Part shown: in pieces, positions 2,107-23,229 of the stretch
How the letters are laid out: the number at the start of each line of letters is the position of its first letter
Numbering within the stretch: position 1 is the stretch's first letter
DNA from: Holophagaceae bacterium
Lineage (GTDB): Bacteria; Acidobacteriota; Holophagae; Holophagales; Holophagaceae
Length of the DNA stretch: 34,170 nucleotides
Assembly: GCA_025353305.1 (NCBI GenBank)
Contig: JANXQX010000097.1
Span: forward strand, 1 to 34,170
Reading direction: 5' to 3'
Made by a program: the position numbers and the translations under genes
Notes under the pieces: generated by a model
What the model saw: only the letters and a program-made list of their open reading frames with translations
What the model was told of the DNA's origin: nothing
Databases searched by the model: none

Positions 2107-2919
2107 ATGCCTACCCCCCGTCCCATCGCTGCTCTGATCATGGTTCTAGCGGCCACCGTTCTAGGCGCCCAGACTTTCGTCCTCCATCCTGACCAGACCT
2201 CGGCCACGACCGAGAGTCACACGGTGGCCCTGCCCAATGGTTCCACCCTCACCATCAAGAACACGAATGGGCGCATCAAGGTGGATACCTGGGACCGGGC
2301 GGAAGTCGCCTTCACGGGGCAGTTCAAGCCCAGCAGCAAGGATGAGCAGGTGAAGGTCGTGTTCGAATCGGGTCCGGGGGGCCTTGAGATCCGCGGCAAA
2401 TATCCTAAGCAGCAGTCTGGTTGGGCTGACTACCGCGGCGCCGTCTGCGAAATGGAACTCAAGGTGCCCCGTAGCGTATTCGCCCGCATTGACACGGTGA
2501 ACGGCAGGATCACGCTGACCGGACTCCAAGCCAAAGCAGAGTGCCGGACGGTCAACGGCGCGATCGAAGCCAATGACCTTAATCACGGCCTGACCGCCGA
2601 GACAGTGAACGGCGCCATCGCCCTGAACCAGGTGCATGGCGCCATCCACGCCTCCACCACCAATGGCGCGATCTCGTGCAAGGGCCTGGATGGCATGGGC
2701 CAGGGTGTTGACCTGTCCACGGTCAACGGCGCCCTGAACGTGACCATGGCCAAGCTCGAAGGCTCCTTGCGGGCCACCACTGTCAATGGCCAAGTCTCGG
2801 TCAACACCAAGGGCGCCGAACAGGTGAATGCTACGAAGCACAAGGTGGAAGCCACCTTCCCAGGCAGCATGCAGATCATCCATCTGAGCACTGTGAACGG
2901 CGCGTTGGTGGTGCATTAG
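2107..2919 (+). CDS. Secreted DUF4097-type beta-repeat protein
   Basis: A 270-residue exported protein with a signal peptide (residues 1-21, ALIMVLAATVLGAQ). The N-terminal part holds SHTVALPNGSTLTIKNTNGRIKV, typical of DUF4097 (putative auto-adhesin) proteins. The rest is a ladder of [ST]x[VT]NG[AR]I units with the Asn at residues 132, 150, 168 and 186 (an exact 18-residue step), then 207, 227 and 264. Such NG turns with alternating hydrophobics predict a right-handed beta-helix or beta-roll. The ATG follows AAGGAG by about seven bases. No enzyme motif is present. The function of the family is not established; surface or envelope location is inferred from the signal peptide. Confidence 0.85.
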   Translation: MPTPRPIAALIMVLAATVLGAQTFVLHPDQTSATTESHTVALPNGSTLTIKNTNGRIKVDTWDRAEVAFTGQFKPSSKDEQVKVVFESGPGGLEIRGKYPKQQSGWADYRGAVCEMELKVPRSVFARIDTVNGRITLTGLQAKAECRTVNGAIEANDLNHGLTAETVNGAIALNQVHGAIHASTTNGAISCKGLDGMGQGVDLSTVNGALNVTMAKLEGSLRATTVNGQVSVNTKGAEQVNATKHKVEATFPGSMQIIHLSTVNGALVVH

Positions 2920-3000
2920 GTTGCTCCTTCGGCAGAGATACAGCAGCGACTCTGAGCAATCGCACGCGATGCCGATTGATGATTTCTATGGGAGACCTTT

Positions 3001-4161
3001 GTGACTTCGCGAGGCAACCTTCTTACCCGTGGTGCCTCAGCTATTTCTCGGTGGTTCATCACATTGCAGTTGCTGTTGCTGCCTCTTTTTGGCCAGACCC
3101 CCGAATCACACCATGCCGCTCCATTGATCATCGGAGATGGGTGGGAACGGGAAGAACCGGCAACAGCAGGTTTCGATGCCGCACGGCTCCGCATGTTGAT
3201 TGACAAGCTGATGGATGAGGAGACAAACATCCACAGCATTCTCGTTGAACGGCATGGGCGCTTGGTGGCAGAGCAATACCGGCGGGGCATGGATAAATCG
3301 GTGTACAGCCTTTTCGCACACACACAAACATTCGGTCCCATGGTCATGCACGACACGCGCTCGGTGGGCAAAAGTGTCGTCAGCCTGCTCATTGGCATTG
3401 CCAAACACCAGGGGAAGATCGGAAACCTTACGACCCCAGCCATAGACTTCTATCCAGAGTATGCAGATTTAGCGACAACCGAATGCAAGGCCATCACCTT
3501 GGAGCACCTGCTGACAATGAGCAGTGGTTATGAGTGGAATGAGGGTGGGAGCGGTCCCGACGATGAACATCGCTTGTATTGGAAGTGGTCGCCCTACCGA
3601 TACGTGCTGAGTCGCCCCATCGTTGCCTCTCCCGGTAGTAGGTTTAATTACAACAGTGGTGGCACAGCCGTTCTTGCCGACATTTTGACCCGGGCCACCC
3701 AAACACCCTTGAAGGAATTCGCCCGAAAATTTTTGTTCGAGCCATTGGGCATCAGCGATTGGGAATGGGTGGCTGATCTGCATGGCCGACCCCTGGCCTT
3801 CACCGGCCTTCGCATGCGCCCTCGCGACATGGCAAAGATTGGCCGTATGGTGGTAGACCACGGACGGTGGCGGGGACAGCAAATTGTCCCGGCGGATTGG
3901 ATCACAACTTCTCTGCAACCCCGGACCAGCACCGGCTATCCAGGTTTGCAGTATGGCTATCAATGGTGGACGGGCACCGTGGAATGGCAAGGTAAAAAAC
4001 TTGCGTGGGGCGCAGCGTTTGGTAATGGTGGTCAACGGCTGTTCGTGGTTCCCGATTTGGACATGACGGTGGTGATCACTGCGGGTGCCTACGACGATCC
4101 GAAAATCGCCCCTCGCGTCAATGCGTTGTTCAAAGACATCATCTCCACGGTTCAAAAATGA
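3001..4161 (+). CDS. Serine hydrolase of the class-C beta-lactamase/DD-peptidase fold
   Basis: A 386-residue protein starting at GTG, chosen because GGAG lies six bases upstream. A hydrophobic segment at 19-31 (FITLQLLLLPLFG) followed by GQ looks like a signal peptide. The penicillin-binding motifs are present: SVGK at 121-124 (nucleophile S121, general base K124), YNS at 217-219 (Y217) and GNGGQ at 341-345 in place of the third KTG/HTG box. This is the pattern of 6-aminohexanoate-dimer-hydrolase/EstB-like proteins as well as AmpC-like beta-lactamases. The fold is clear but the substrate (peptide, ester or beta-lactam) cannot be inferred. It is monocistronic and ends at a strong terminator. 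Confidence 0.88.
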   Translation: MTSRGNLLTRGASAISRWFITLQLLLLPLFGQTPESHHAAPLIIGDGWEREEPATAGFDAARLRMLIDKLMDEETNIHSILVERHGRLVAEQYRRGMDKSVYSLFAHTQTFGPMVMHDTRSVGKSVVSLLIGIAKHQGKIGNLTTPAIDFYPEYADLATTECKAITLEHLLTMSSGYEWNEGGSGPDDEHRLYWKWSPYRYVLSRPIVASPGSRFNYNSGGTAVLADILTRATQTPLKEFARKFLFEPLGISDWEWVADLHGRPLAFTGLRMRPRDMAKIGRMVVDHGRWRGQQIVPADWITTSLQPRTSTGYPGLQYGYQWWTGTVEWQGKKLAWGAAFGNGGQRLFVVPDLDMTVVITAGAYDDPKIAPRVNALFKDIISTVQK

Positions 4162-4429: not shown

Positions 4430-6142
4430 TCAAAGCGCCGTTAACGGTATCCGTCGCCCTTGGCCAAAGGCTTTGGGGCTCACTTTCAGATTGAAGGGGA
4501 GCTGTCGGCGTTTGAATTCAGTGTGGCGCAGCAGGCCCAGGATTCGTGGCAGAGCTTTTTGCGCGGACTCCAGCTCAGCGCCCTCCAGCAAGAGAACGAG
4601 ATCTTCCGAGAGTCCTGCCTCGGGCCGTTGGGCTTCAAGCGCAGCGCCAAGGATGGCATCGAGTACCGCGTAGGGTGCAAGGCTGGCTTCATCGGTTTGG
4701 CCAGGGCGAAGTTCGGCGGTGGGCACTCTGTGCAGAATGCCCGGCGTGATGGCTTCTCCCAATTCATACGCGAGGCTGTAAACGCGGGCTTTCAGGCAAT
4801 CGCCCAGGATGGAGAAGGCGCCGATGCCATCGCCGTAGAGCGTGAAATAACCCGTGGAGGCTTCGCTCTTGTTCCCGGTGTTCAGCACCGCGATGCGGGT
4901 GGAACCTAGCTGTTCATGGACCGCGGGCTCTGAGGTGAGCGCCATGAGCAGCATGGCTCGGGCGCGGCTCTGCAGGTTTTCATCGGTGACGGAAAAAATG
5001 CGATCTGGAAATGCGCTGTTCAGGGCCGAGGCTGCTCCCGCAAAAGGCGCATCCGCATCCAGGCAAAGGAACTTGATCCCCAAACGTTGGGCCTGATTCT
5101 TGGCAAGAGCCAGGCTTTCACCGCTGGAATAAGCGGTCGGCAGAGCTACACCAAGCACGCGCTCGGGCCCCAGCGCCTCGACTGCGACGGCGGCCACCAC
5201 TGAGCTGTCAATACCACCGGAAAGGCCGATGACCACTGCTTCCAATCCCTGCTTGGCCAGGTTTTCGCGCAACCCCAGGCCAAGGGCGACCCGGAGCCAG
5301 GCACCTTCTTCCGGAAAAATGGGCCAGGAAGTTCCGGTGGTTCCGGTGTCCACCCCCACGATGCCTTGCGTGAATCGCTGGCCGCCCTGCCAGCTTCCAT
5401 CGGGTTGCACCAGACACGAGCCACCGTCGAAAAGCAGCGAACTGTCAGCACCCACCCGATCCGCATAGACCAGCGGCACACCATATTTTTTCGCGAGACC
5501 CTGGATCAAACGTTTCCGCTGCTGTTCTTTCGATGCAATGGTCCAGGGCGCTGCCTTGCCTGGGGGCAACCAGGAACCGAGCAGCGTGGGGCTGGCGGAG
5601 GCATTGAGAAGCAGCGTAGCCCCAGCTTTTGCAAGTTCGGCAATGGGATCGCGGGTGTAATGAACAGCTGCGCTGCTGAACTCCTGATCGGCCCAAAGGT
5701 CCTCGCAAATGGAGATGCCGATGCGCTGGCCCAGATGTTCGATGAGCTCCGGAATTTCAGGCGCAGGTTCGAACCAGCGGTGTTCCTCGAACACATCGTA
5801 ACTGGGCAGCAGCTGCTTGCGGATGATCTGGCGAATCGCCCCGCTCTCGCACCACCACAATTCGTTAAAAAGACGGCCCGAAGGGCTTGGACTGAAGGTG
5901 CCGAATACCAGCGGCACCGATCCAGTTAGCTTTGCCAGTCGCCCGGATTCAGTGGCCACAAGGGCTCGTAAACCTGCTTCCCACAGGCGATCTTCAGCGA
6001 GATACCCCACCACCGCCAGCTCTGGAGTCACGACCAACTCGGCGCCACCTGCTACTGCCTCGGCATAAGCCAATTCTATGGCCGCACCGTTCGCGACCGG
6101 GTCGCCGAGCTGCTGGTTCAGTTGAAGCAAGGCAATTCGCAT
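4430..6142 (-). CDS. nadE: Glutamine-dependent NAD(+) synthase
   Basis: A 570-residue two-domain enzyme making NAD from deamido-NAD, ATP and glutamine in the cytoplasm. The N-terminal nitrilase-type amidase (about 1-270) shows its Glu-Lys-Cys triad: E41 in TPELA, K109 in IRKQLLPSYDVFEE and C146 in ISICEDLW. The C-terminal synthetase carries the PP-loop SGGIDSS at 308-314 and LNTGNKSE/STGYFTLYGDG, the usual NAD synthase signatures. The length fits the bacterial glutamine-dependent form. It lies 91 bp downstream of the histidine kinase gene in the same orientation and could be read from the same transcript. nadC lies elsewhere in the window, so the two NAD genes are not in one operon. Confidence 0.97.
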   Translation of the reverse strand: MRIALLQLNQQLGDPVANGAAIELAYAEAVAGGAELVVTPELAVVGYLAEDRLWEAGLRALVATESGRLAKLTGSVPLVFGTFSPSPSGRLFNELWWCESGAIRQIIRKQLLPSYDVFEEHRWFEPAPEIPELIEHLGQRIGISICEDLWADQEFSSAAVHYTRDPIAELAKAGATLLLNASASPTLLGSWLPPGKAAPWTIASKEQQRKRLIQGLAKKYGVPLVYADRVGADSSLLFDGGSCLVQPDGSWQGGQRFTQGIVGVDTGTTGTSWPIFPEEGAWLRVALGLGLRENLAKQGLEAVVIGLSGGIDSSVVAAVAVEALGPERVLGVALPTAYSSGESLALAKNQAQRLGIKFLCLDADAPFAGAASALNSAFPDRIFSVTDENLQSRARAMLLMALTSEPAVHEQLGSTRIAVLNTGNKSEASTGYFTLYGDGIGAFSILGDCLKARVYSLAYELGEAITPGILHRVPTAELRPGQTDEASLAPYAVLDAILGAALEAQRPEAGLSEDLVLLLEGAELESAQKALPRILGLLRHTEFKRRQLPFNLKVSPKAFGQGRRIPLTAL

Positions 6143-6233
6143 GAGTCCAGGATACCGATTCAGAAGCCACGGCGTTCAAGGATGCGACGCGGCGGGTCCC
6201 ATTGCCTGCAGTCCAGGGTCCACAGACCTCAAC

Positions 6234-7385
6234 TCACCACCAGATCTCCACTCTGGTTCCACCTTCTTCTCGTTTTTCAAAGCGTAAATCCGCGCCTTGG
6301 GCGTTGATCCATTTCAAGGCGAGGGGCAACCCAAGGCCAGTGCCATCGGGACGGCCACTTTCGAAAGGCCGCAGCATTTGCAACAAGGTGTCCTCGCCCA
6401 TGCCCGGGCCCTGATCGAGAATTTGGATGCGGCCATCTTCCACCACCACACGGATCTCGCCGCCTCGGGGCGTAGCCTGACAGGCGTTCTCAAGCAGATT
6501 CAACAGCGCTTGATGCAACAGCATTGGATCTGCCATGGCACGACCCTGGCCCTCGCATTTCAACGTGCGCCCATGACTTAAGGGCCGCTTTGCTATTTCC
6601 GTGATGACTTCATTCGCAACTTCCCCCAGATTCGTTTCCGAGTATTCAGGCTCCAAGGGTTTGGCCCATTGCAAAAATTTCTGGATGACACGATCCAATT
6701 CATCCACCTCGTCGAGCAGGTCTTTCGACACATCCACGTGGCCCGCACGATACAGCAACTGGCCATGGCCCTTGAGTACCGCAAGGCCATTCTTCAATTG
6801 GTGCGCCACGCCCGCTGTCATCTCGCCCAATTCCGCGAACCGCTCGCGCAATTGGCGACGGCGATCCTCCGCTTCCTGCTCGGTGATGTCTTCAAAGGAA
6901 AGCAAAGCCCCCACCTGATTGGGAGCCTCGATCCGCCGCAGTCGCCAGCGTTTCATCGCGCCTTCAGCATTGGCGCCCTCACAGCGCCAGCCTGGACCAG
7001 GGCCCCGATGCAGGCCTTCCAGCAGCCAGGGAAAGGGCTCCAACACGAAGGAGGTATCCAGACCCACCACGCCGGGTTTCACACCCAGCAATTCGCGGCC
7101 CATGGAATTGAGCGCCGCCACCTGATTTTTCTGGTCCACCCACAACAGGCCGAAGGGCAGCGCGTCCACCAGTTTTTCGTGCACGGTTTGCAGCTGGCCG
7201 AGAGTGGCAGCCAGCTCCCCGCGTTCATGAAGACTGCGGCTCACGGCGCCGAGGACCAGCAACTCCGGATCTTCCTTGGCTGTGCGCCGAGTTCGAAAAA
7301 ATCGAATCCCGAAGATGGTCGCTCCAAATAAAACCATTCCGACCGGGAAGGCCATGGCGATGAGCGATTCAGCTGAGAGTTTCAT
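6234..7385 (-). CDS. Membrane-anchored PAS sensor histidine kinase (orphan)
   Basis: A 383-residue kinase. An N-terminal membrane segment (about 8-30) is followed by a PAS-like domain (about 70-165, ending SFEDITEQE). The dimerisation/phosphoacceptor helix has H195 in GVAHQLKNGLAVLKGH, a HisKA-type box, and the ATPase domain has N300 (LLNLLENACQA), DQGPGMG (324-330) and GTGLGLPLA (348-356). No response-regulator gene is adjacent, so its partner must be encoded elsewhere. The signal is probably cytoplasmic or membrane-borne because there is almost no periplasmic loop. The start codon has no clear Shine-Dalgarno and faces the divergent phosphotransferase-regulator gene 32 bp away. NtrB/AtoS-like kinases are the nearest general type. 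Confidence 0.92.
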   Translation of the reverse strand: MKLSAESLIAMAFPVGMVLFGATIFGIRFFRTRRTAKEDPELLVLGAVSRSLHERGELAATLGQLQTVHEKLVDALPFGLLWVDQKNQVAALNSMGRELLGVKPGVVGLDTSFVLEPFPWLLEGLHRGPGPGWRCEGANAEGAMKRWRLRRIEAPNQVGALLSFEDITEQEAEDRRRQLRERFAELGEMTAGVAHQLKNGLAVLKGHGQLLYRAGHVDVSKDLLDEVDELDRVIQKFLQWAKPLEPEYSETNLGEVANEVITEIAKRPLSHGRTLKCEGQGRAMADPMLLHQALLNLLENACQATPRGGEIRVVVEDGRIQILDQGPGMGEDTLLQMLRPFESGRPDGTGLGLPLALKWINAQGADLRFEKREEGGTRVEIWW

Positions 7386-7420: not shown

Positions 7421-8242
7421 GATCAGCATCCCATCTACATTCTGTCCGGTGGATCCGGCGAGACCGCCCTGCGAATGGTGGCCGCCGCGCTCACACAATT
7501 TCATTCGGGTGATATCTCTGTCATGCGGCGTTTCCAGAACGTCTTCACACACGAAGATATAGAACGCATTCTGCAATTGGCAGCTGAAAAACGGGCGGTG
7601 ATCGTCCACACCATTGTGAGCCGGGAGCAGCGCAATTTCCTTGACCAGCGTTGCGCGGATCTGCGACTCACCCAGGTGGATCTCTTCGGGGATCTGCTGA
7701 ACACTCTGGGTCTTTACTTGCGCGAGAGCCCTGATGAACGGCCAGGCCTTTTTCATGCGGTGGGTGACCGGTACTTCAAGCGCATCGAGGCCATCGAATT
7801 CGCGTTGAAGTACGATGACGGCGCGGATATATCTGGCATTGCCACAGCGGACATCGTATTGGTGGGGCTTTCGCGCACCAGCAAGACACCCCTTTCCATG
7901 TATCTCGCCATGGAAGGGCATCGCGTCATGAATGTACCCTTGGTGCCCGGTGTGCCCTTGCCGTCGGAGTTGGACGAAATTCCCCAAGGCCGCATCGTGG
8001 GCCTCACCATCCAGCCTGAACGCCTGCGGGAAATTCGTCTGAATCGCCTGTCGCGGCTTGGCGCCGGTGGCATTGCCGACAAATACAGCGACATGGGCCA
8101 CATCCTGGAGGAGTTGACGTATGCAGAAGGTGTCTTCAAGCAGCACCGCCGCTGGCCGCTTCTGGATGTGACGGGAAAAAGCATCGAAGAAACCGCAGGT
8201 CTTGTACTGGACCGTGTCTTCGGTAAAGAACGGGCCGTATGA
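7418..8242 (+). CDS. Pyruvate phosphate dikinase / PEP synthase regulatory protein (bifunctional kinase-pyrophosphorylase)
   Basis: A 274-residue DUF299 protein. This family uses ADP to phosphorylate, and Pi to dephosphorylate, the active-site threonine of PEP synthase or PPDK, switching gluconeogenic PEP formation off and on. Seen here: the N-terminal YILSGGSGETA, the nucleotide-binding GLSRTSKTP at 150-158, and LTIQPERLREIR followed by YSDMGHILEELTYAE, all hallmark segments. The length is normal. The stop codon overlaps the egtB start (ATGA), so the two are translationally coupled, although no functional link between them is known. The target enzyme is not encoded in the window, so I cannot say whether it is the PPDK or PEPS form. 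Confidence 0.93.
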   Translation: MDQHPIYILSGGSGETALRMVAAALTQFHSGDISVMRRFQNVFTHEDIERILQLAAEKRAVIVHTIVSREQRNFLDQRCADLRLTQVDLFGDLLNTLGLYLRESPDERPGLFHAVGDRYFKRIEAIEFALKYDDGADISGIATADIVLVGLSRTSKTPLSMYLAMEGHRVMNVPLVPGVPLPSELDEIPQGRIVGLTIQPERLREIRLNRLSRLGAGGIADKYSDMGHILEELTYAEGVFKQHRRWPLLDVTGKSIEETAGLVLDRVFGKERAV

Positions 8243-9408
8243 ACGATCTGCCGCGGCAGTACCGCTCGGTGCGCAAGGCGACGCTGAATCTAGTGGCGCC
8301 CCTGACACTAGAAGACATGGTGGTTCAGGCCATGCGCGACACCAGCCCCACCAAGTGGCACCTGGCGCATACCACCTGGTTCTTTGAAACCTTCATCCTG
8401 ATACCGAAGCTTCCTGGATACCAAGTCTTCGATCCCAGCTATGGATTTCTCTTCAACAGCTACTACAACGCCATCGGCCAGCGGCAGCCAAGGGACCAGC
8501 GAGGCGTTCTGACGCGACCGGGCCTGGGGGAAGTTCTGGCCTACCGGCGCCACGTGGACGGGGCCATGGAAACCCTGCTGGAAAATTTTCCAACCGCGGC
8601 CATGGCCCTCGTCGAACTGGGTCTGCACCATGAGCAGCAGCACCAGGAATTGATCCTCACGGACATCAAATACCTGCTGGGAACCCAGCCCTTGAAACCC
8701 GCCTACCTTCCCGCTCCACTCGCTCCAGCAGGCGAGCCCGCACCCGCGTTGACGCTGGAATGGGTCCCGTTTGATGAAGGTCTCCGCGCCGTCGGCCATG
8801 ATGGCAGCGGATTCGCTTTCGACAACGAAGGGCCTCGGCACAACGTATTCCTGACTGCTTTCGAGCTTGCAGCCCGGCCTGTGACCGTTGGTGAATATCT
8901 CCGGTTCATCGAGGATGGTGGCTACGAGCGTCCCGACCTATGGCTCTCCGATGGCTGGGACGCCGTGCTCACGAATGGCTGGACAGCGCCTCTCTACTGG
9001 CGAAAGTCCTTGGGCGGATGGAAGGTTTTCACGCTGCAGGGCGAGGAGGACTTGGCTCGGAGGAAGTCCGTCTGTCATTTGAGTCATTTCGAAGCAGACG
9101 CCTATGCTCGCTGGGCTGGTGCGCGCTTGCCCACCGAAGCCGAGTGGGAAGTCGCCTCGGATCATCCCGGCTTGTCACAGATGATGGGGGTCGTGTGGGA
9201 GTGGACCGGCAGCGCCTATCTGCCCTACCCGGGTTTCCGCGCTGCGGTGGGCGCAGTGGGGGAATACAACGGTAAATTCATGAGTGGTCAGATGGTGTTG
9301 CGGGGCGGCAGCATCGCTACGCCACACGGCCATATCCGGCCCACCTACCGGAACTTTTTCCCGCCCACCGCGCGCTGGCAATTTTCGGGGCTGCGATTGG
9401 CGCGTTAG
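8239..9408 (+). CDS. egtB: Ergothioneine sulfoxide synthase EgtB
   Basis: A 389-residue non-haem iron enzyme that couples trimethyl-histidine (hercynine) to a thiol donor using O2. The N-terminal DinB-like domain has SPTKWHLAHTTWFFE (36-50, iron ligand probably H44) and HHEQQHQE (130-137), the HxxxHxE ligand motif at H131/H135. The C-terminal formylglycine-generating-enzyme-like domain has NEGPRHNVFLTAF, ARLPTEAEWE, VVWEWTGSAY and the closing YRNFFPPTARWQFSGLRLAR. The length is a little short of the mycobacterial enzyme. The ATG overlaps the preceding stop. EgtA, EgtC and EgtE are not nearby, which suggests that it may use cysteine rather than gamma-glutamylcysteine; this is inference. Confidence 0.93.
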   Translation: MNDLPRQYRSVRKATLNLVAPLTLEDMVVQAMRDTSPTKWHLAHTTWFFETFILIPKLPGYQVFDPSYGFLFNSYYNAIGQRQPRDQRGVLTRPGLGEVLAYRRHVDGAMETLLENFPTAAMALVELGLHHEQQHQELILTDIKYLLGTQPLKPAYLPAPLAPAGEPAPALTLEWVPFDEGLRAVGHDGSGFAFDNEGPRHNVFLTAFELAARPVTVGEYLRFIEDGGYERPDLWLSDGWDAVLTNGWTAPLYWRKSLGGWKVFTLQGEEDLARRKSVCHLSHFEADAYARWAGARLPTEAEWEVASDHPGLSQMMGVVWEWTGSAYLPYPGFRAAVGAVGEYNGKFMSGQMVLRGGSIATPHGHIRPTYRNFFPPTARWQFSGLRLAR

Positions 9409-9441
9409 ACGGAATTCCCACTCTCCACTTAGGCTGATCCG

Positions 9442-10389
9442 ATGCCCGGACCCCAAATGACCTCCAACTTGATGGATGAAGTCCGCACCGGCCTTCTTGC
9501 CAATCCCAGACGCCTGCCACCGGCGCTCTTCTACGACGCGGAGGGCTCGGCTCTCTTCGAGCGGATCACGGAATTGCCCGAGTATTACCCCACTCGCACC
9601 GAACGGGACATCCTCGAACGCCATGCGGCGGACATGCTCCAGGAAGCCGGGACTGATCTGGAATTGGTGGAGCTGGGGTCAGGCAGTTCCACCAAGACCC
9701 ACCTACTCATCCATGCGCTTTTGTCTCGTCAACCAGATGGCAGCTACGTACCCATAGACGTGAGCGCCACCGCGCTGAAACACGCGAAGTCAGCCTTGCT
9801 GGAAGCTTTTCCGAGGCTTGAAGTCCGACCCATTCACGCAGATTACCTGGGAGGCCTGGCCTCCCTGAACCATGGCCATGCACGGCGGCTGGTGATCTTC
9901 CTGGGCTCCACCATCGGCAATTTTGATCCTGCCCAGGCAACGTCTTTCCTGCGCTCCGTGCGGGCGGCCCTCCAACCCGGGGATGCGCTGCTCATCGGCA
10001 TGGACCTGGCCAAAGCACCGACCATCCTCATCCCCGCCTACGATGATGCCCTCGGTGTCACCGCACTGTTCAATTTGAACGTGTTGGCCCGGCTCAACCG
10101 GGACTGGGGCGCAGATTTCCAGTTGGAGGGCTTCCATCACGTGGCCTTGTGGAACGCGGTCGAGTCACGCATGGAAATGCACTTGGAAAGCCAAGCGCGA
10201 CAGTTCGTTCGCGTCGCTGCCCTCGATTTGGAAATTGCCCTAAGTGTGGGCGAACGCATCCACACCGAGAACAGTTATAAATTCCGCCCCGGCGTGGGCG
10301 AGGCCATCCTCCATGACGCGGGCTGGTTGCTGGAGCGCACCTGGACCGATGAACAGAAGTGGTTCGCGGTGCACCTGGCCCGATGTTGA
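9442..10389 (+). CDS. egtD: L-histidine N(alpha)-methyltransferase EgtD
   Basis: A 315-residue SAM-dependent enzyme that trimethylates histidine to hercynine, the first step of ergothioneine synthesis. Diagnostic segments are FYDAEGSALFERITELPEYYPTRTE split over 30-54 (histidine-site tyrosines), ELGSGSSTKT at 77-86 (SAM loop), FLGSTIGNF at 153-161 and IHTENSYKF near 270. The length matches the family. It begins 33 bp after egtB with only a weak purine run upstream; an alternative ATG five codons in is possible. With egtB it forms a two-gene ergothioneine locus. It ends 71 bp before the convergent permease gene, with no obvious terminator between. Confidence 0.95.
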   Translation: MPGPQMTSNLMDEVRTGLLANPRRLPPALFYDAEGSALFERITELPEYYPTRTERDILERHAADMLQEAGTDLELVELGSGSSTKTHLLIHALLSRQPDGSYVPIDVSATALKHAKSALLEAFPRLEVRPIHADYLGGLASLNHGHARRLVIFLGSTIGNFDPAQATSFLRSVRAALQPGDALLIGMDLAKAPTILIPAYDDALGVTALFNLNVLARLNRDWGADFQLEGFHHVALWNAVESRMEMHLESQARQFVRVAALDLEIALSVGERIHTENSYKFRPGVGEAILHDAGWLLERTWTDEQKWFAVHLARC

Positions 10390-18970: not shown

Positions 18971-19831
18971 TCAATCAGCTTTGCCCGCATCAAACGACAA
19001 CAGCGTGGGGTTCCGGCCCTGCAGGATGTCCTCCATGCGCACCTTGACGCCAGCCTTGGTGTCTGGATGGGTGAGGATGTAAAAGCATTCTGAGGCGATG
19101 GCCTCGAAGACTGCGTCGGCCACGCGATCCGGAGCAATGCCGGTGGCCGTGGCCTGCAGCACAGCGCTGGCGATTTTTGCGGAGACCTGGTCAAATTTTC
19201 TTAGATCACTGCGCTCGGCTTCCTCGCGGTTCCGTTCGGATTCCGCGATGCGGGTCTTCACCCAGGCGGGGCACAATACGGACACTTTCAGCCTGGAATC
19301 ACGCAAGGCCAGGTCGTGGTGCAGCACTTCCGAGAGCACCACCACCCCGTGTTTGCTCACGCTATAGGCCGCAAAGCCCGGCGTGGCCAGCAAGCCCGCG
19401 GCTGAAGCGGTGTTGATGATATGGCCTTCCTCGCCATCCGAAAGCATGCGCGGCACGAAGGCCTGCAGGCCGTGGATGACACCGTGGAGGTTCACGCCCA
19501 GCACCCAATTCCAGTCTTCCGAAGTCAATTCCCACGCGGGTTTGCAGAGCGCAACGCCGGCATTGTTCACCAGGAGATGCACCCGGTGGAAACGGGTGAA
19601 GGCAGCATCGGCCAGGGCTTTCACATCCTCGAAATTGGAGACATCGGTGGGAACGCCGACCACTTCCGCGCCCTGCCGCTTCAGCTCGGCCACCGTGCCC
19701 GCAAGGCTGGCCGCGTTGATGTCGGCCAGCACAAGTTTCATGCCTTCCTTGGCGGCACGCTGGGCGATGGCCCGGCCGATGCCCTCGGCCCCGCCGGTGA
19801 TGACCGCGATTTTGTTCTTGAGGTCTTCCAT
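18971..19831 (-). CDS. Short-chain dehydrogenase/reductase (classical SDR), downstream copy
   Basis: A 286-residue NAD(P)-dependent oxidoreductase. TGGAEGIG (12-19) is the nucleotide loop, LVNNAG (87-92) the central strand motif, and S143, Y156 and K160 (YSVSK) the catalytic triad. An aspartate at the end of strand 2 (LADIN, D37) favours NAD over NADP. A C-terminal extension of about 40 residues (DRVADAVFEAIASECFYILTHPD) resembles SDRs of the CsgA/Rv-type lipid dehydrogenases. It is the last gene of the acyl-CoA cluster, ten bases after the other SDR, with GGGAG five bases before the ATG. The substrate is unknown; a hydroxy- or oxo-acyl-CoA is likely from context. Confidence 0.9.
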   Translation of the reverse strand: MEDLKNKIAVITGGAEGIGRAIAQRAAKEGMKLVLADINAASLAGTVAELKRQGAEVVGVPTDVSNFEDVKALADAAFTRFHRVHLLVNNAGVALCKPAWELTSEDWNWVLGVNLHGVIHGLQAFVPRMLSDGEEGHIINTASAAGLLATPGFAAYSVSKHGVVVLSEVLHHDLALRDSRLKVSVLCPAWVKTRIAESERNREEAERSDLRKFDQVSAKIASAVLQATATGIAPDRVADAVFEAIASECFYILTHPDTKAGVKVRMEDILQGRNPTLLSFDAGKAD

Positions 19832-19841
19832 GGGCGCTCCC

Positions 19842-20603
19842 TCAGACCGTTAAATATCCGCCGTCCACGTTCAGGCACGTTCCCGTGGTATAGCTCGCGG
19901 CGTCGGAAACCAGATACAGCACCGCGCCCGCCATTTCATCGGGCTGGGCGATGCGGTGCAACGGGATGTGCTCCAGCGCCTTCTCCAGGATCATGGGATT
20001 GCCGGTCAAAGCCGAAGCGAACTTGGTGTCCGTGAAGCCCGGCAGCAGCGCATTGACGCGGATCTTCAGTGGTGCGCACTCCTTGGCGAAGGCCTGGGTC
20101 ATGGAAATCACTGCTGCCTTGGTGATGGAGTAGATGCCCTGGAAAGGTCCGGGGATGACACCATTCACCGACGCCACGTTCACAATGGCGCCGCCTTGCT
20201 TCATGAGCTTCGCACCACCCACGGACATGAAGAAATAGCCCCGGATGTTAACGTCCACGGTCTTCTGGAAAGCGCCCATGGGCGTGTCCAGGATGGGCCC
20301 GAAATAAGGATTGGCGGCAGCATTATTGACGAGGATGTCCAGGTGTCCGTGCTTGGAATCGATGACCTTGAAGATGGCTTCGATCTGGTCCACATCCCCG
20401 ATGTGGCAGCCCATGGCTTCCGCCGACCCACCGTCCGCCTTGATAGCGTCCACCACCGGTGTGCAATGCTCCGCCTTGCGGCTGGACACGATGACGTGGG
20501 CGCCATGGGCTGCCAACAGCGTCGCAATGGCCTCGCCAATGCCCCGGCTGGCGCCGGTCACCAAGGCGATCTTGCCGCTTAGATCGAAGGTGGGCTGGGT
20601 CAT
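19842..20603 (-). CDS. Short-chain dehydrogenase/reductase, upstream copy (DHRS4/FabG-like)
   Basis: A 253-residue SDR with TGASRGIG (16-23), LVNNAAANPYFGP (91-103), S145, Y158 and K162 (YSITK) and the C-terminal GTCLNVDGGYLTV typical of FabG/DHRS4-like enzymes. SSRK after strand 2 (40-43) suggests NADP. The NNAAANPYFGP variant of the NNAG motif is what peroxisomal DHRS4-type and related fatty-acyl SDRs use. GGAG precedes the ATG by six bases. It sits between the kinase gene and the second SDR; with LvaD of the levulinate pathway as precedent, it might reduce or oxidise a 4-oxo/4-hydroxy acyl-CoA, but this is inference. Confidence 0.92.
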   Translation of the reverse strand: MTQPTFDLSGKIALVTGASRGIGEAIATLLAAHGAHVIVSSRKAEHCTPVVDAIKADGGSAEAMGCHIGDVDQIEAIFKVIDSKHGHLDILVNNAAANPYFGPILDTPMGAFQKTVDVNIRGYFFMSVGGAKLMKQGGAIVNVASVNGVIPGPFQGIYSITKAAVISMTQAFAKECAPLKIRVNALLPGFTDTKFASALTGNPMILEKALEHIPLHRIAQPDEMAGAVLYLVSDAASYTTGTCLNVDGGYLTV

Positions 20604-20645
20604 GGGAGCTCCTGGTTCATCGGTATCGCGAATGAAAAGCTAACC

Positions 20646-20751
20646 ACGCGGAGGGGTGCGGGGAAAAGCGGAGGGTAGTGGAGAAGAACTTTCTTAACCC
20701 AATTTTCTTGTTCTTCTCCGCTGCCCTCCGCTTCGCCGCGACCCTCCGCGT
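20646..20751. repeat. Intergenic inverted repeat with iterated word GCGGAGGG (element B)
   Basis: Left arm 20646-20689 and right arm 20710-20751 pair in three blocks: ACGCGGAGGG with 20742-20751 (10 bp), GCGGAGGG 2068-type block at 20668-20675 with 20724-20731 (8 bp), and GGAGAAGAAC 20680-20689 with 20710-20719 (10 bp). The loop is 20 bases. It fills the gap between the SDR start and the kinase stop, both minus strand. Six T residues on the plus strand (20756-20761) follow the right arm. Confidence 0.9.
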
Positions 20752-20759
20752 TGTGTTTT

Positions 20760-21827
20760 TTAAGCTTTCGACGCCGCGATCTGCCTCAAACAGCGCTGCT
20801 CCAGGTAGTTCGTCATGTGGATGAAGCCTTTGAACGCTGGATTCGTGGTCTGGCCGTGATGGTAGCGGTAGTAGATCTGTTGCACGATCACCGCCAGCCG
20901 GAACAGGCCGTAGATCAGGTAGAAGGTGATGTCGTCCACCTTGCGCCCGGTCCGGGAAGCGTAGTAGTCAATGGCCTCCTGCCGCGTGAGCATTCCCGGC
21001 AGGTGCGTGGGTTGGCGGCGCATGCGCTTGAAGGTCTCGTCGTCGTCCGCCTGGACCCAGTAGGCCAGCGAGTTCCCGAGGTCCATTAACGGATCGCCCA
21101 ACGTCGCCATCTCCCAGTCCAGCACGCCGATGACGTTCATGGGGTGCTCCGGATCCAAAACCACATTATCGAAGCGGAAATCATTGTGGATCAGGCAGGT
21201 GGCACTGTCTTGGGTTGGCATATTCGCCGCGAGCCACGCCATCACACTTTCAAAATCCACCGCATTTTCCGTGCGGGCCTTGCGATAGCGGTCGCTCCAA
21301 CCGGATATCTGGCGTTGCACGTAACCATCACCCTTGCCAAGTGATTCCAACCCCGCGGCCTTCCAATCCACCTGATGCAGCTCGATGAGCTTGTCGAGAA
21401 CGTTGAGGCAAAGCTGGCGCGTGTCGGCTTCGTTGAGATCCAATCCCTCCGGCAGGTCCTGGCGTGGGATCAGCCCCCGGATGCGCTCCATCACATAGAA
21501 TTCGCTGCCCATAACCGCCACGTCCTCGCAAAAGGCCAGCACCTCTGGAACGTAGGGATAGTGCTGCTTCAGAGCCGCCATGATGCGCGCTTCCCGTCCC
21601 ATATCGTGGGCGCTCTTCGCCTTGTGCCCGAACGGCGGCCGCCGCAGCACCAGCTCGCGGTTCTCGTAGCGAACCAAATACGTCAGATTCGAAGCACCGC
21701 CAGGAAACTGGCTGATGGCTGGGACACCCACAAGGCTCGGATCCAGGCTTTTCAAGAATTCATCAACGGCCAGAATGGGCAGGTCCTCACCGCTGCGAAT
21801 AGGGCCTGATTCATCGATCAAAGGCAC
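20760..21827 (-). CDS. APH/choline-kinase-fold phosphotransferase (ACAD10/11 N-domain type, LvaA-like)
   Basis: A 355-residue small-molecule kinase. I start it at GTG 21827 because GGAG lies five bases upstream; the open frame continues upstream into a repeat through a TTG without a ribosome site. Seen: FPGGASNLTYLVRY (41-54) and LVLRRPPFG (59-67) of the N-lobe, HNDFRFDN at 214-221 (catalytic D216, N221) and VLDWEMATLGDPLMDL with D237 (metal). The DWExATxGDPLxDL block and the LRRPP segment match the kinase domain fused to acyl-CoA dehydrogenase in ACAD10/ACAD11 and the stand-alone LvaA. The dehydrogenase gene lies directly upstream. The expected reaction is phosphorylation of the 4-hydroxyl of a 4-hydroxyacyl-CoA; antibiotic resistance is unlikely. 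Confidence 0.88.
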   Translation of the reverse strand: MPLIDESGPIRSGEDLPILAVDEFLKSLDPSLVGVPAISQFPGGASNLTYLVRYENRELVLRRPPFGHKAKSAHDMGREARIMAALKQHYPYVPEVLAFCEDVAVMGSEFYVMERIRGLIPRQDLPEGLDLNEADTRQLCLNVLDKLIELHQVDWKAAGLESLGKGDGYVQRQISGWSDRYRKARTENAVDFESVMAWLAANMPTQDSATCLIHNDFRFDNVVLDPEHPMNVIGVLDWEMATLGDPLMDLGNSLAYWVQADDDETFKRMRRQPTHLPGMLTRQEAIDYYASRTGRKVDDITFYLIYGLFRLAVIVQQIYYRYHHGQTTNPAFKGFIHMTNYLEQRCLRQIAASKA

Positions 21828-21871
21828 AAGGACTCCGCAGAGGTTGAACTGAAAAAGAAAAAAATGAATCG

Positions 21872-21952
21872 CCGGGGACAAAAAAGGATTTACGGGGATG
21901 AAAGCAAATACCAGCCTTGTTCTTGTCCCCGTTCATCCCCGTCCATCCCCGG
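21872..21952. repeat. Intergenic inverted repeat with iterated word CGGGGATGA (element C)
   Basis: The right arm carries three copies of the complement of CGGGGA at 10-11-bp steps (21925-21931, 21935-21941, 21946-21952); the left arm carries two (21872-21878, 21893-21899). Pairings are ACGGGGATGAA 21892-21902 with 21932-21942 (11 bp, perfect) and CCGGGGA with 21946-21952; CGGGGACAA 21873-21881 can alternatively pair with 21923-21931. It separates the dehydrogenase stop from the kinase start. Confidence 0.85.
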
Positions 21953-21964
21953 TAAAAAAGCTTT

Positions 21965-23200
21965 TCATTTTTTCGGTATCTCCATCCCCGCCTTCTCCGC
22001 CTGCGCTTTGAGTTCCCCCTTGGCGATGGACGCGCGGTGCACTTCGTCGGGGCCGTCGGCTAGGCGTAGCATTCTTGCGTAGGCGTAGAGGCCCGTCAGC
22101 GGAAAATCATCGCTGAGGCCGGCGCCGCCGTGCATCTGGATGGCCTGATCGATGACCAGCTGCGCCATGTTGGGCGCTATGACTTTGATCTGCGATATCT
22201 CGCTTTTGGCGCCCTTCACGCCGACGGTGTCCATCAGCCACGCAGCCTTGAGCGTGAGCAGGCGCGCTTGTTCGATGGCCATGCGGGCATTGGCGATGAT
22301 GTCGCGGTTGCCCCCCAGCAGCGCCAGGGGCTTGCCGAAAGCAATGCGCGTGAGGGAGCGCTGGCACATGAGTTCCAGGGCCCGCTCGGCGGCGCCGATG
22401 ATGCGCATGCAATGGTGGATGCGGCCCGGCCCTAAGCGCCCCTGCGCGATCTCAAACCCGCGGCCGGGCCCACTGATGAAATTTTCGATGGGCACTCGAA
22501 CATCCGTGAAGCTCACTTCGCCGTGGCCGTAGGGCTCGTCCAGGGCGCCGAAGACTGGCACCATGCGTTCGACTTTCAGGCCCGGCGCATCGAGGGGCAC
22601 CAGCACCATGGAATGCTGCGAATATTTCGGCGCGCCGGGGTCCGTGAGCCCCATGAAGATGACGAAGGCGCAGTTGGGATGGCCAATGCCGCTGCTCCAC
22701 CACTTGCGCCCATTGATGACGATTTCATCCCCCTTTAAGACCGCCGTGGCCCGCATGTTGGTGGCGTCGCTGGATGCCACCTCCGGCTCGGTCATGCAGA
22801 ATGCCGAACGGATCTTGCCTTCCAAAAGTGGCTTCAGCCAGCGCTTCTGTTGTTCTTTGGAACCGTACTGCACTAGCACTTCCATGTTCCCCGTGTCCGG
22901 CGCGTTGCAATTGAAGACTTCAGGCGTGATGAGCGAGCGGCCCATCAGTTCCGCCAGAGGCGCGTACTCCAGGTTCGTGAGTCCCGCGCCGAATTCGGTG
23001 TCCGGCAAGAACAGGTTCCACAGCCCCGCGGCCTTCGCTTTGGCCTTCATCTCCTCCATGATCGGCGGCACATTCCAGGGCTGTGTCCCGCGCTTCAGTT
23101 GCGAGAGATAGGTTTCCTCAAACGGCGTGACGTGCTCGGTGATGAAGGCTGACACGCGGGCGATGAAATCGCGGGCCTTGGGGGAGTGGGCGAAATCCAT
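21965..23200 (-). CDS. Acyl-CoA dehydrogenase, ACAD10/11 (LvaC-like) type
   Basis: A 411-residue FAD enzyme. The ATG at 23200 is chosen for its GGAG six bases upstream; the frame opens six codons earlier at a [19 protein letters not shown] (134-149) and WWSSGIGHP (167-175) form the flavin/substrate region, and [22 protein letters not shown] (split at 254-274) with AFGKPL is the ACAD11-type helical core. The usual catalytic glutamate of YEGT is replaced by D382 in ADGPDEVH, as in ACAD10/11. That subfamily is known to act on 4-phosphoacyl-CoAs, removing phosphate to leave an enoyl-CoA. It heads the minus-strand cluster with the kinase and two SDRs, separated from the kinase by element C. Confidence 0.93.
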
Positions 23201-23229
23201 GAGGGGCTCCGGGTTCAAGAAAAATAATG

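Follow-up and report, generated by a model that had tools for sequence, protein, structure and literature searches.

A four-gene cluster of a Holophagaceae bacterium predicted to activate 4-hydroxyacyl-CoAs with a split ACAD10/11-like kinase and dehydrogenase pair

The mammalian proteins ACAD10 and ACAD11, whose function was assigned only in papers of 2024 and 2025, carry a kinase and an acyl-CoA dehydrogenase (ACAD) fused in one protein. In vitro, each of the two ACAD10 domains could be replaced by a separate bacterial relative (PMC11342911). The lvaRABCDEFG operon of Pseudomonas putida combines a kinase, an ACAD-fold eliminase and a short-chain dehydrogenase/reductase (SDR), and in it a 4-hydroxyacyl-CoA is activated by phosphorylation. 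A kinase, an ACAD and an SDR are likewise present in the lva-type levulinate cluster of Pseudomonas citronellolis LA18T, in which the kinase is 59% identical to LvaA and the ACAD 78% identical to LvaC (PMC6692424). The subject of this analysis is a related cluster of four genes in a 34,170-nucleotide stretch of DNA from a Holophagaceae bacterium (contig JANXQX010000097.1), referred to below as the window. The cluster belongs with the ACAD10/11 and lva systems as a variant and is not a separate kind, and it quite probably forms a module that channels 4-hydroxyacyl-CoAs into beta-oxidation.

An earlier note on this DNA had described an acyl-CoA dehydrogenase with the ACAD11 core motif, a kinase with the motifs of the APH family and two SDRs, in that order on one strand. 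All four genes were found as described, on the minus strand: ADGPDEVH is present in the dehydrogenase translation, Pfam APH matches the kinase at 174.5 bits, and Pfam adh_short matches both SDRs. The genes are as follows.

21965–23200, minus strand: ACAD10/11-type acyl-CoA dehydrogenase, 411 amino acids from an ATG at 23200
20760–21827, minus strand: kinase with an APH fold, from the clade sister to the ACAD10/11 kinase domains, GTG start
19842–20603, minus strand: SDRa, adh_short, NCBIfam PRK07035 type, with an NADP-type SSRK motif
18971–19831, minus strand: SDRb, adh_short, NCBIfam PRK06194 type, with an NAD-type aspartate motif

The open reading frame (ORF) of the dehydrogenase reaches further, to a TTG at 23218, and its residue numbers below follow this 417-residue frame. 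From its GTG the kinase has 355 residues, a typical length among its relatives, and its residue numbers follow the longer ORF of 373 residues at 20760–21881. The intergenic gaps are, in order from the dehydrogenase, 137, 156 and 10 bp, and the genes are thus not tightly packed throughout.

The dehydrogenase contains the Pfam domains Acyl-CoA_dh_N, Acyl-CoA_dh_M and Acyl-CoA_dh_1. In a sequence search of the PDB it scores 597 bits to 4hr3, which has no assigned function, and 442–447 bits to three ACAD11 sequences, with the next conventional ACAD at 146 bits; the aligned identities are 67% to 4hr3 and 53% to mouse ACAD11. The earlier note had staked its reading on membership of the ACAD10/11 clade, and a FastTree phylogeny of 145 sequences, midpoint-rooted, places the dehydrogenase inside that clade, together with mouse ACAD11 in a group of 122 members (support 1.0) within which the placement of ACAD11 has a support of just 0.045. 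The phosphate-recognition residues of mouse ACAD11, R626, H634 and R637, correspond to R261, H269 and R272 (columns placed by motifs in the mouse sequence), and its catalytic D753, in the motif LADGPDEVH, corresponds to D388. All four are kept in 103 of 103 relatives at or above 500 bits and in 15 of 15 at 220–400 bits; among the nine relatives at 400–500 bits the histidine is present in eight, one having tyrosine, and the other three residues in all nine. Among 15 ACADs below 220 bits the equivalents of R626, H634, R637 and D753 occur in just 3, 3, 4 and 4. In ACAD10/11 the most disruptive changes were non-conservative ones at R626, H634 and R637, which abolished the activity of the ACAD domain, R637K being only partly impairing (PMC12440821). 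The helix-breaking proline of human ACAD11 (P463), in a column chosen by hand from the motif FAPDVFN, is matched by P99, and it is a weak criterion because it is kept in only 74 of the 103 close relatives. The dehydrogenase, which shares its clade and the four substrate residues with mammalian ACAD10 and ACAD11 (PMC12440821, PMC11342911), is predicted to be an FAD-dependent enzyme that eliminates phosphate from 4-phosphoacyl-CoAs.

In the corresponding search the kinase scores 268 bits to 9o56, 163 bits to ACAD11 and 40.6 bits to 9fsg, and it is 32–35% identical to the kinase domain of mouse ACAD11. Its D234, N239 and D255 correspond to D220, N225 and the DFG-like aspartate of ACAD11 and are each kept in 113 of 113 aligned kinases. 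R96 and R190 correspond to the CoA-contacting R86 and R176 of ACAD11, in columns placed by hand from mouse ACAD11 motifs, and each is arginine in 109 of the 113. In a midpoint-rooted tree of these sequences the kinase falls in a 68-member clade with 9o56 (support 0.981) that has the clade with ACAD11 and 3dxp as its sister, the two joined comprising 109 members (0.984). Best kinase matches in 249 Pseudomonadota genomes also form two groups, with 18 genomes at or above 424 bits and the rest at or below 197. The earlier note had named a grouping with aminoglycoside kinases as the outcome that would count against it; the kinase is not an aminoglycoside kinase, but it stands as sister to the ACAD11 kinase clade and not strictly inside it. 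As judged from the retained catalytic and CoA-binding residues, it is predicted to be a 4-hydroxyacyl-CoA kinase, so that the same two reactions as in the mammalian proteins would be carried out here by two separate proteins instead of a fusion, with a kinase from the sister clade and two SDRs attached.

The distribution of the two genes was examined at thresholds of E 1e-30 for a kinase of either clade and E 1e-110 for an ACAD11-type dehydrogenase, at most seven dehydrogenase candidates being scored per genome. The kinase is present in 69 of the 249 Pseudomonadota genomes and the dehydrogenase in 67, all of them among the 69 and none among the 180 kinase-negative genomes (Fisher p 4e-59, shared ancestry ignored). 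All 16 genomes with a dehydrogenase at or above 540 bits fall among the 18 with a window-type kinase, and the best kinase and best dehydrogenase lie apart in nine of those 18. Within Pseudomonas, 117 of 119 genomes have the kinase and 117 the dehydrogenase, and the same two genomes have neither, a joint absence with a chance of 1 in 7021 if the genes were independent; G085, with the dehydrogenase in two pieces, and G126, with a partial match, were counted as present. Residues, trees and co-occurrence together support the proposal of the earlier note that this is a split ACAD10/11-like pair, most likely acting on 4-hydroxyacyl-CoA. As a separate observation, one same-class family (loci L100 and L101) has a 52–55% identical kinase paired with a clearly different ACAD (41%), which suggests divergence or exchange of the partner.

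In the proposed route the kinase would transfer a phosphate from ATP to the 4-hydroxyl of a 4-hydroxyacyl-CoA, and the ACAD11-type dehydrogenase would then eliminate the phosphate, with FAD as cofactor and no net redox change, to give a 2-enoyl-CoA that could be finished by an ordinary hydratase, dehydrogenase and thiolase. Phosphorylation followed by phosphate elimination is, as a prediction, well supported because the residues of both enzymes, their clades and their co-occurrence all point to it. ACAD11 functions with its kinase and ACAD domains alone, and therefore the core pair should suffice. SDRa would reduce 4-oxoacyl-CoA and thereby feed the 4-hydroxyacyl-CoA pool, and SDRb would either oxidize the 4-hydroxy enantiomer that is not preferred, giving the 4-oxo form, as the partner of SDRa in an epimerizing pair, or act on the 3-hydroxy product.

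In SDRs a basic residue at the cofactor-deciding site goes with NADP and an aspartate with NAD. Among distinct cluster-linked copies, picked by score, length, strand and closeness to the kinase and with near-identical copies removed, SDRa has a basic residue at this site in 34 of 34 and SDRb an aspartate in 25 of 25, in both gene orders; the YxxxK motif is present in 34 of 34 and 24 of 25, respectively. These motifs suggest that SDRa is NADP-dependent and SDRb NAD-dependent. The lva reference used here is the Pseudomonas locus L224, recognized by gene anatomy and not by name, and its SDR in the LvaD position is 40% identical to SDRa and 28% identical to SDRb and carries the same kind of basic motif as SDRa (TARR). 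SDRa may thus be a 4-oxoacyl-CoA reductase, and SDRb is predicted to be an NAD-dependent secondary alcohol dehydrogenase for the opposite enantiomer or for the downstream 3-hydroxyacyl compound; it could be either the part of a stereo-inverter that oxidizes or a dehydrogenase of 3-hydroxyacyl-CoAs, and the evidence accommodates both.

The second of these assignments, in which the core chemistry is the same, SDRb is an NAD-dependent 3-hydroxyacyl-CoA dehydrogenase, SDRa is a 4-oxo reductase and stereo-inversion does not occur, is a serious possibility that falls short of being probable. The NAD-type aspartate fits a catabolic oxidation, the product of the ACAD step enters beta-oxidation, and SDRb resembles, if less closely, hydroxyacyl and hydroxybutyrate dehydrogenases (2et6, 2q2q). 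However, its closer solved relatives are SDRs without assigned function (5ig2, 3ioy, 3tjr) and C-alpha dehydrogenases (4yae, 4y98), and a dedicated enzyme may duplicate general beta-oxidation. Slightly more doubtful is the proposal that the pair is a stereo-inverter, SDRb oxidizing (S)-4-hydroxyacyl-CoA with NAD to the 4-oxo compound and SDRa reducing this with NADPH to the (R) form, the one taken by a kinase that prefers R. Racemic 4-hydroxy fatty acids, arising by lipid peroxidation or from gamma-lactones, would then be fully used, and the ACAD11 system would be widespread in bacteria, near-universal in Pseudomonas as two loci, of which one has an SCP2-like lipid-binding protein, and not a levulinate speciality. 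The SDR pair leads to a clear prediction on the use of both enantiomers.

The neighbourhoods of 58 distinct window-type kinases (at or above 380 bits) were surveyed, of which 13 were dropped for short flanks; the remaining 45 loci include the window and its sister locus L010. Next to the kinase an ACAD is present in 30, a phosphatase in 31, SDRb in 21, LysR in 17 and SDRa in at least 27, this last count being a lower bound because the score thresholds miss more divergent annotated SDRs (for example in L091 and L094). The 15 loci without a neighbouring ACAD have SDRa in 14, the phosphatase in 11 and SDRb in one. The exact order LysR, ACAD, kinase, histidine phosphatase, SDRa, SDRb is found in four loci, those of Azospirillum (L089), Contendobacter (L024), Telmatospirillum (L012) and L184, which have identities of 62–77% and share the kinase clade, ACAD clade and gene order of the window; the window has this order minus the phosphatase and minus LysR. 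With the phosphatase of L184 as query (E 1e-5), none of the five genomes of the window's genus, which are 76–95% complete, gave a match, whereas both positive controls did, and no LysR match lies beside the cluster in that genus. Six of 277 matching plasmid records were opened: an Azospirillum plasmid has LysR, ACAD, kinase, histidine phosphatase family, SDR and SDR in that order, and annotated plasmids of Ideonella, Pseudoalteromonas, Streptomyces, Deinococcus and a Rhodobacteraceae bacterium have other orders or fewer genes. A description of the window-type operon was not found in the open literature searched, as far as its text was read. In Pseudomonas this gene set is divided between two places. 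Pseudomonas-type loci have the kinase within a run of phosphatase, SCP2-like gene, kinase and SDRa, and the LysR and ACAD pair lies elsewhere in the seven Pseudomonas dehydrogenase loci opened (L217–L223). The SCP2-like protein of these loci, 105 residues long and encoded between the histidine phosphatase and the kinase (L170 5706–6023 and equivalents), may serve the kinase as a carrier of lipids or acyl-CoAs. Three Acidobacteriaceae metagenome-assembled genomes (MAGs; L013, L014, L018) have the LysR and ACAD pair as in Pseudomonas, and the kinase was not found in the stretch examined.

Several points weigh against the proposed module or parts of it. The p value for co-occurrence takes no account of common descent, and both samples, that of the phylum and that of the genus, were drawn around G043 and G042, genomes chosen as cluster carriers. 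The nearest solved relative of the kinase, 9o56, carries only the label aminoglycoside phosphotransferase, and the searches made did not turn up biochemistry for the window-type kinase clade. LvaD is reported to take NADH or NADPH (PMC6692424), and therefore the basic motif does not fix cofactor, substrate or stereochemistry. ACAD10 favours R-4-hydroxyhexanoyl-CoA about fourfold and is still active on the S form (PMC11342911), which makes the need for inversion weaker. Finally, four loci (L020, L021, L027, L030) consist of ACAD and kinase only, with no SDR above threshold found nearby, and these, together with the absence of SDRb from 14 of the 15 ACAD-less loci, indicate that the SDR pair is not general.

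The earlier note had further called the cluster levulinate-like and a reduced version lacking an acyl-CoA synthetase and an LvaB-like partner. That it is a reduced lva operon, with equivalents of LvaA, LvaC and LvaD acting on the C5 compound 4-hydroxyvaleryl-CoA for the use of levulinate, is unlikely. The P. putida lva operon does use the same chemistry, and SDRa resembles the SDR in the LvaD position of L224 to the extent given above. In P. citronellolis, moreover, the lvaA homologue has a histidine phosphatase gene nearby and LvaB was not found (PMC6692424), and therefore accessory genes vary between versions; the same extra gene type occurs in relatives of the window cluster, although the window has none. 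However, the window proteins are only 26–33% (kinase) and 35–37% (dehydrogenase) identical to those of L224, which are thus further from them than ACAD11 is. In the midpoint-rooted trees the L224 proteins in the LvaA and LvaC positions both fall outside the clades that unite the window proteins with ACAD11, the kinase lying outside even the joined 109-member group. The order in L224 is sigma-54 regulator, kinase, a 118-residue DUF6285 protein (LvaB), ACAD, SDR, synthetase and symporter. Among the loci surveyed and the window, DUF6285 was found only in L224 and L225, and not in the window. The ORFs beside the cluster, which were read by eye with no genome-wide search and which we take to be a ccsA-like gene on one side and a RarA-like ATPase gene on the other, do not look like a synthetase (LvaE), a sigma-54 regulator (LvaR) or a symporter. 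Since the intergenic gaps are at most 156 bp, neither a synthetase nor an LvaB-like gene can fit between the cluster genes. Furthermore, the window-type pair is present in 117 of the 119 Pseudomonas genomes, against LvaC-like matches (208–228 bits) listed for five, of which L224 and L225 were inspected. Membership of the lva group was rejected on identity, tree placement and the absence of DUF6285 from the window, and the description as levulinate-like is not supported. The lack of synthetase and LvaB from the cluster stands, whereas the view of it as a reduced lva version is not supported: what sets the cluster apart from its nearest relatives is the lack of a histidine phosphatase and of a LysR regulator and not that of LvaB or LvaE, and compared with lva it has an extra NAD-type SDR.

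ACADs of about 50% identity from four Pseudomonas genomes (L213–L216) were set aside as LvaC candidates, a kinase match not having been found near them. The use of L224 as reference can be compared with published values. The L224 kinase and mouse ACAD11 share 30% identity, in agreement with the 29% printed for LvaA (PMC11342911). For the L224 protein in the LvaC position and mouse ACAD11 the values are 38% identity and 57% positives, against a published identity of LvaC to ACAD10/11 of 56–62%, with 56% for ACAD11 (PMC11342911); our guess is that the published figure is similarity rather than identity.

Slightly less probable than a reduced lva operon is a kinase that acts on another hydroxyl, such as a steroid or terpenoid side-chain alcohol, with the ACAD eliminating the phosphate placed there. 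The window kinase resembles the 25-hydroxysteroid kinase (9fsg/9ft5) in being an APH-fold small-molecule kinase, that enzyme having a steroid side-chain alcohol as its substrate. In a fold search with the predicted kinase structure, which is of moderate quality (pLDDT 74.7), is low at the catalytic loop and served for fold ranking only, 3dxp came first, followed by 25-hydroxysteroid kinase and Rv3168, with 9ft5/9fsg at ranks 2, 4 and 5 and ACAD11 at rank 6; 9o56, the best match by sequence, is absent among the best 50 fold matches listed. This ranking is offset by the weakness of the model around the catalytic loop and by the sequence score to 9fsg, the lowest of the three given above, on which the steroid kinase was rejected as the closest relative despite the similar fold. 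The ACAD partner, moreover, has the residues for a 4-phosphoacyl-CoA, and the kinase keeps the equivalents of the CoA-binding arginines. A drug-inactivating aminoglycoside kinase beside an unrelated dehydrogenase can be dismissed: the protein has the APH fold (PF01636) and databases label its relatives aminoglycoside phosphotransferase, but among the six PDB matches with E at or below 0.001 the word aminoglycoside is no more than a generic label (on 9o56 and 9fsg), the sole antibiotic-kinase match in NCBIfam (capreomycin) scores 26.7 against a cut-off of 390, aminoglycoside kinases enter the fold ranking only at rank 7 with APH(2''), and kinase and ACAD co-occur tightly.

The putative 4-hydroxyacyl-CoA module is conserved in the window's genus, where the kinase is present in all five genomes, against none of 20 other genomes of the family. 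Both SDRs are also present in five of five, one of them spanning two contigs in G003, and the dehydrogenase in four of five, in two pieces in G002. It was not found in G001, the nearest genome compared (78% of the window's sampled 31-letter words shared), where the contig stops inside the kinase and the dehydrogenase would therefore lie beyond it. A copy 100% identical to the window dehydrogenase is present in L009, from a MAG titled Holophagaceae bacterium. Among the best 120 kinase matches listed, the closest named ones outside Holophagaceae are betaproteobacterial (Collimonas, 69–74%), and in its tree the dehydrogenase joins first a Pseudomonas MAG and next Azospirillum, Telmatospirillum and L184 (supports 0.83 and 0.93), with other Acidobacteriota further out. 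From these placements the cluster was probably gained by horizontal transfer from Proteobacteria, in which the version often includes a LysR regulator and a histidine phosphatase as well. The GC content of the window, per 2 kb, is 57–63%.

Across sister species the operon is interrupted at differing sites. In L096 (G005), a HicAB-like pair at 5816–6282, its HicB match being under the Pfam cut-off, splits the ACAD from the kinase; in L097 (G002) at 2332–3008 and L095 (G003) at 9595–10251, a CcdAB pair and a nucleotidyltransferase-looking gene without a Pfam match, respectively, each lie between SDRa and SDRb.

If the proposed function is correct, ACAD10/11 chemistry would be common in bacteria, though little studied there for the most part, and would have a kinase clade of its own and a conserved operon; it could then be dissected in hosts that are easy to grow, such as P. 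putida. Many genes named aminoglycoside phosphotransferase could then be renamed, at least 8000 kinase relatives having been returned by one search.

The gaps at 20604–20759 and 21828–21964 contain GC-rich partial palindromes that look like repetitive extragenic palindromic elements (CCCTCCGC / GCGGAGGG and GGGGATGAACGGGG types). The palindrome patterns tried have few copies within the window, a repeat search found none of 24 bases or more in it, and promoter and terminator scans gave scores under the shuffled mean. Elsewhere in the window, at 8239–10389, an EgtB-like gene with DinB_2 and FGE-sulfatase domains lies beside a histidine-specific methyltransferase gene (Methyltransf_33), a candidate ergothioneine-type pair. 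Nine Pseudomonas-type loci (L170–L174, L188, L190, L191, L207) have an enoyl-CoA hydratase/isomerase gene at a distance of a few kb from the kinase; the L170 copy shares 57% identity with the hydratase encoded at 358–1173 of the window, which is some 18 kb away from the cluster.

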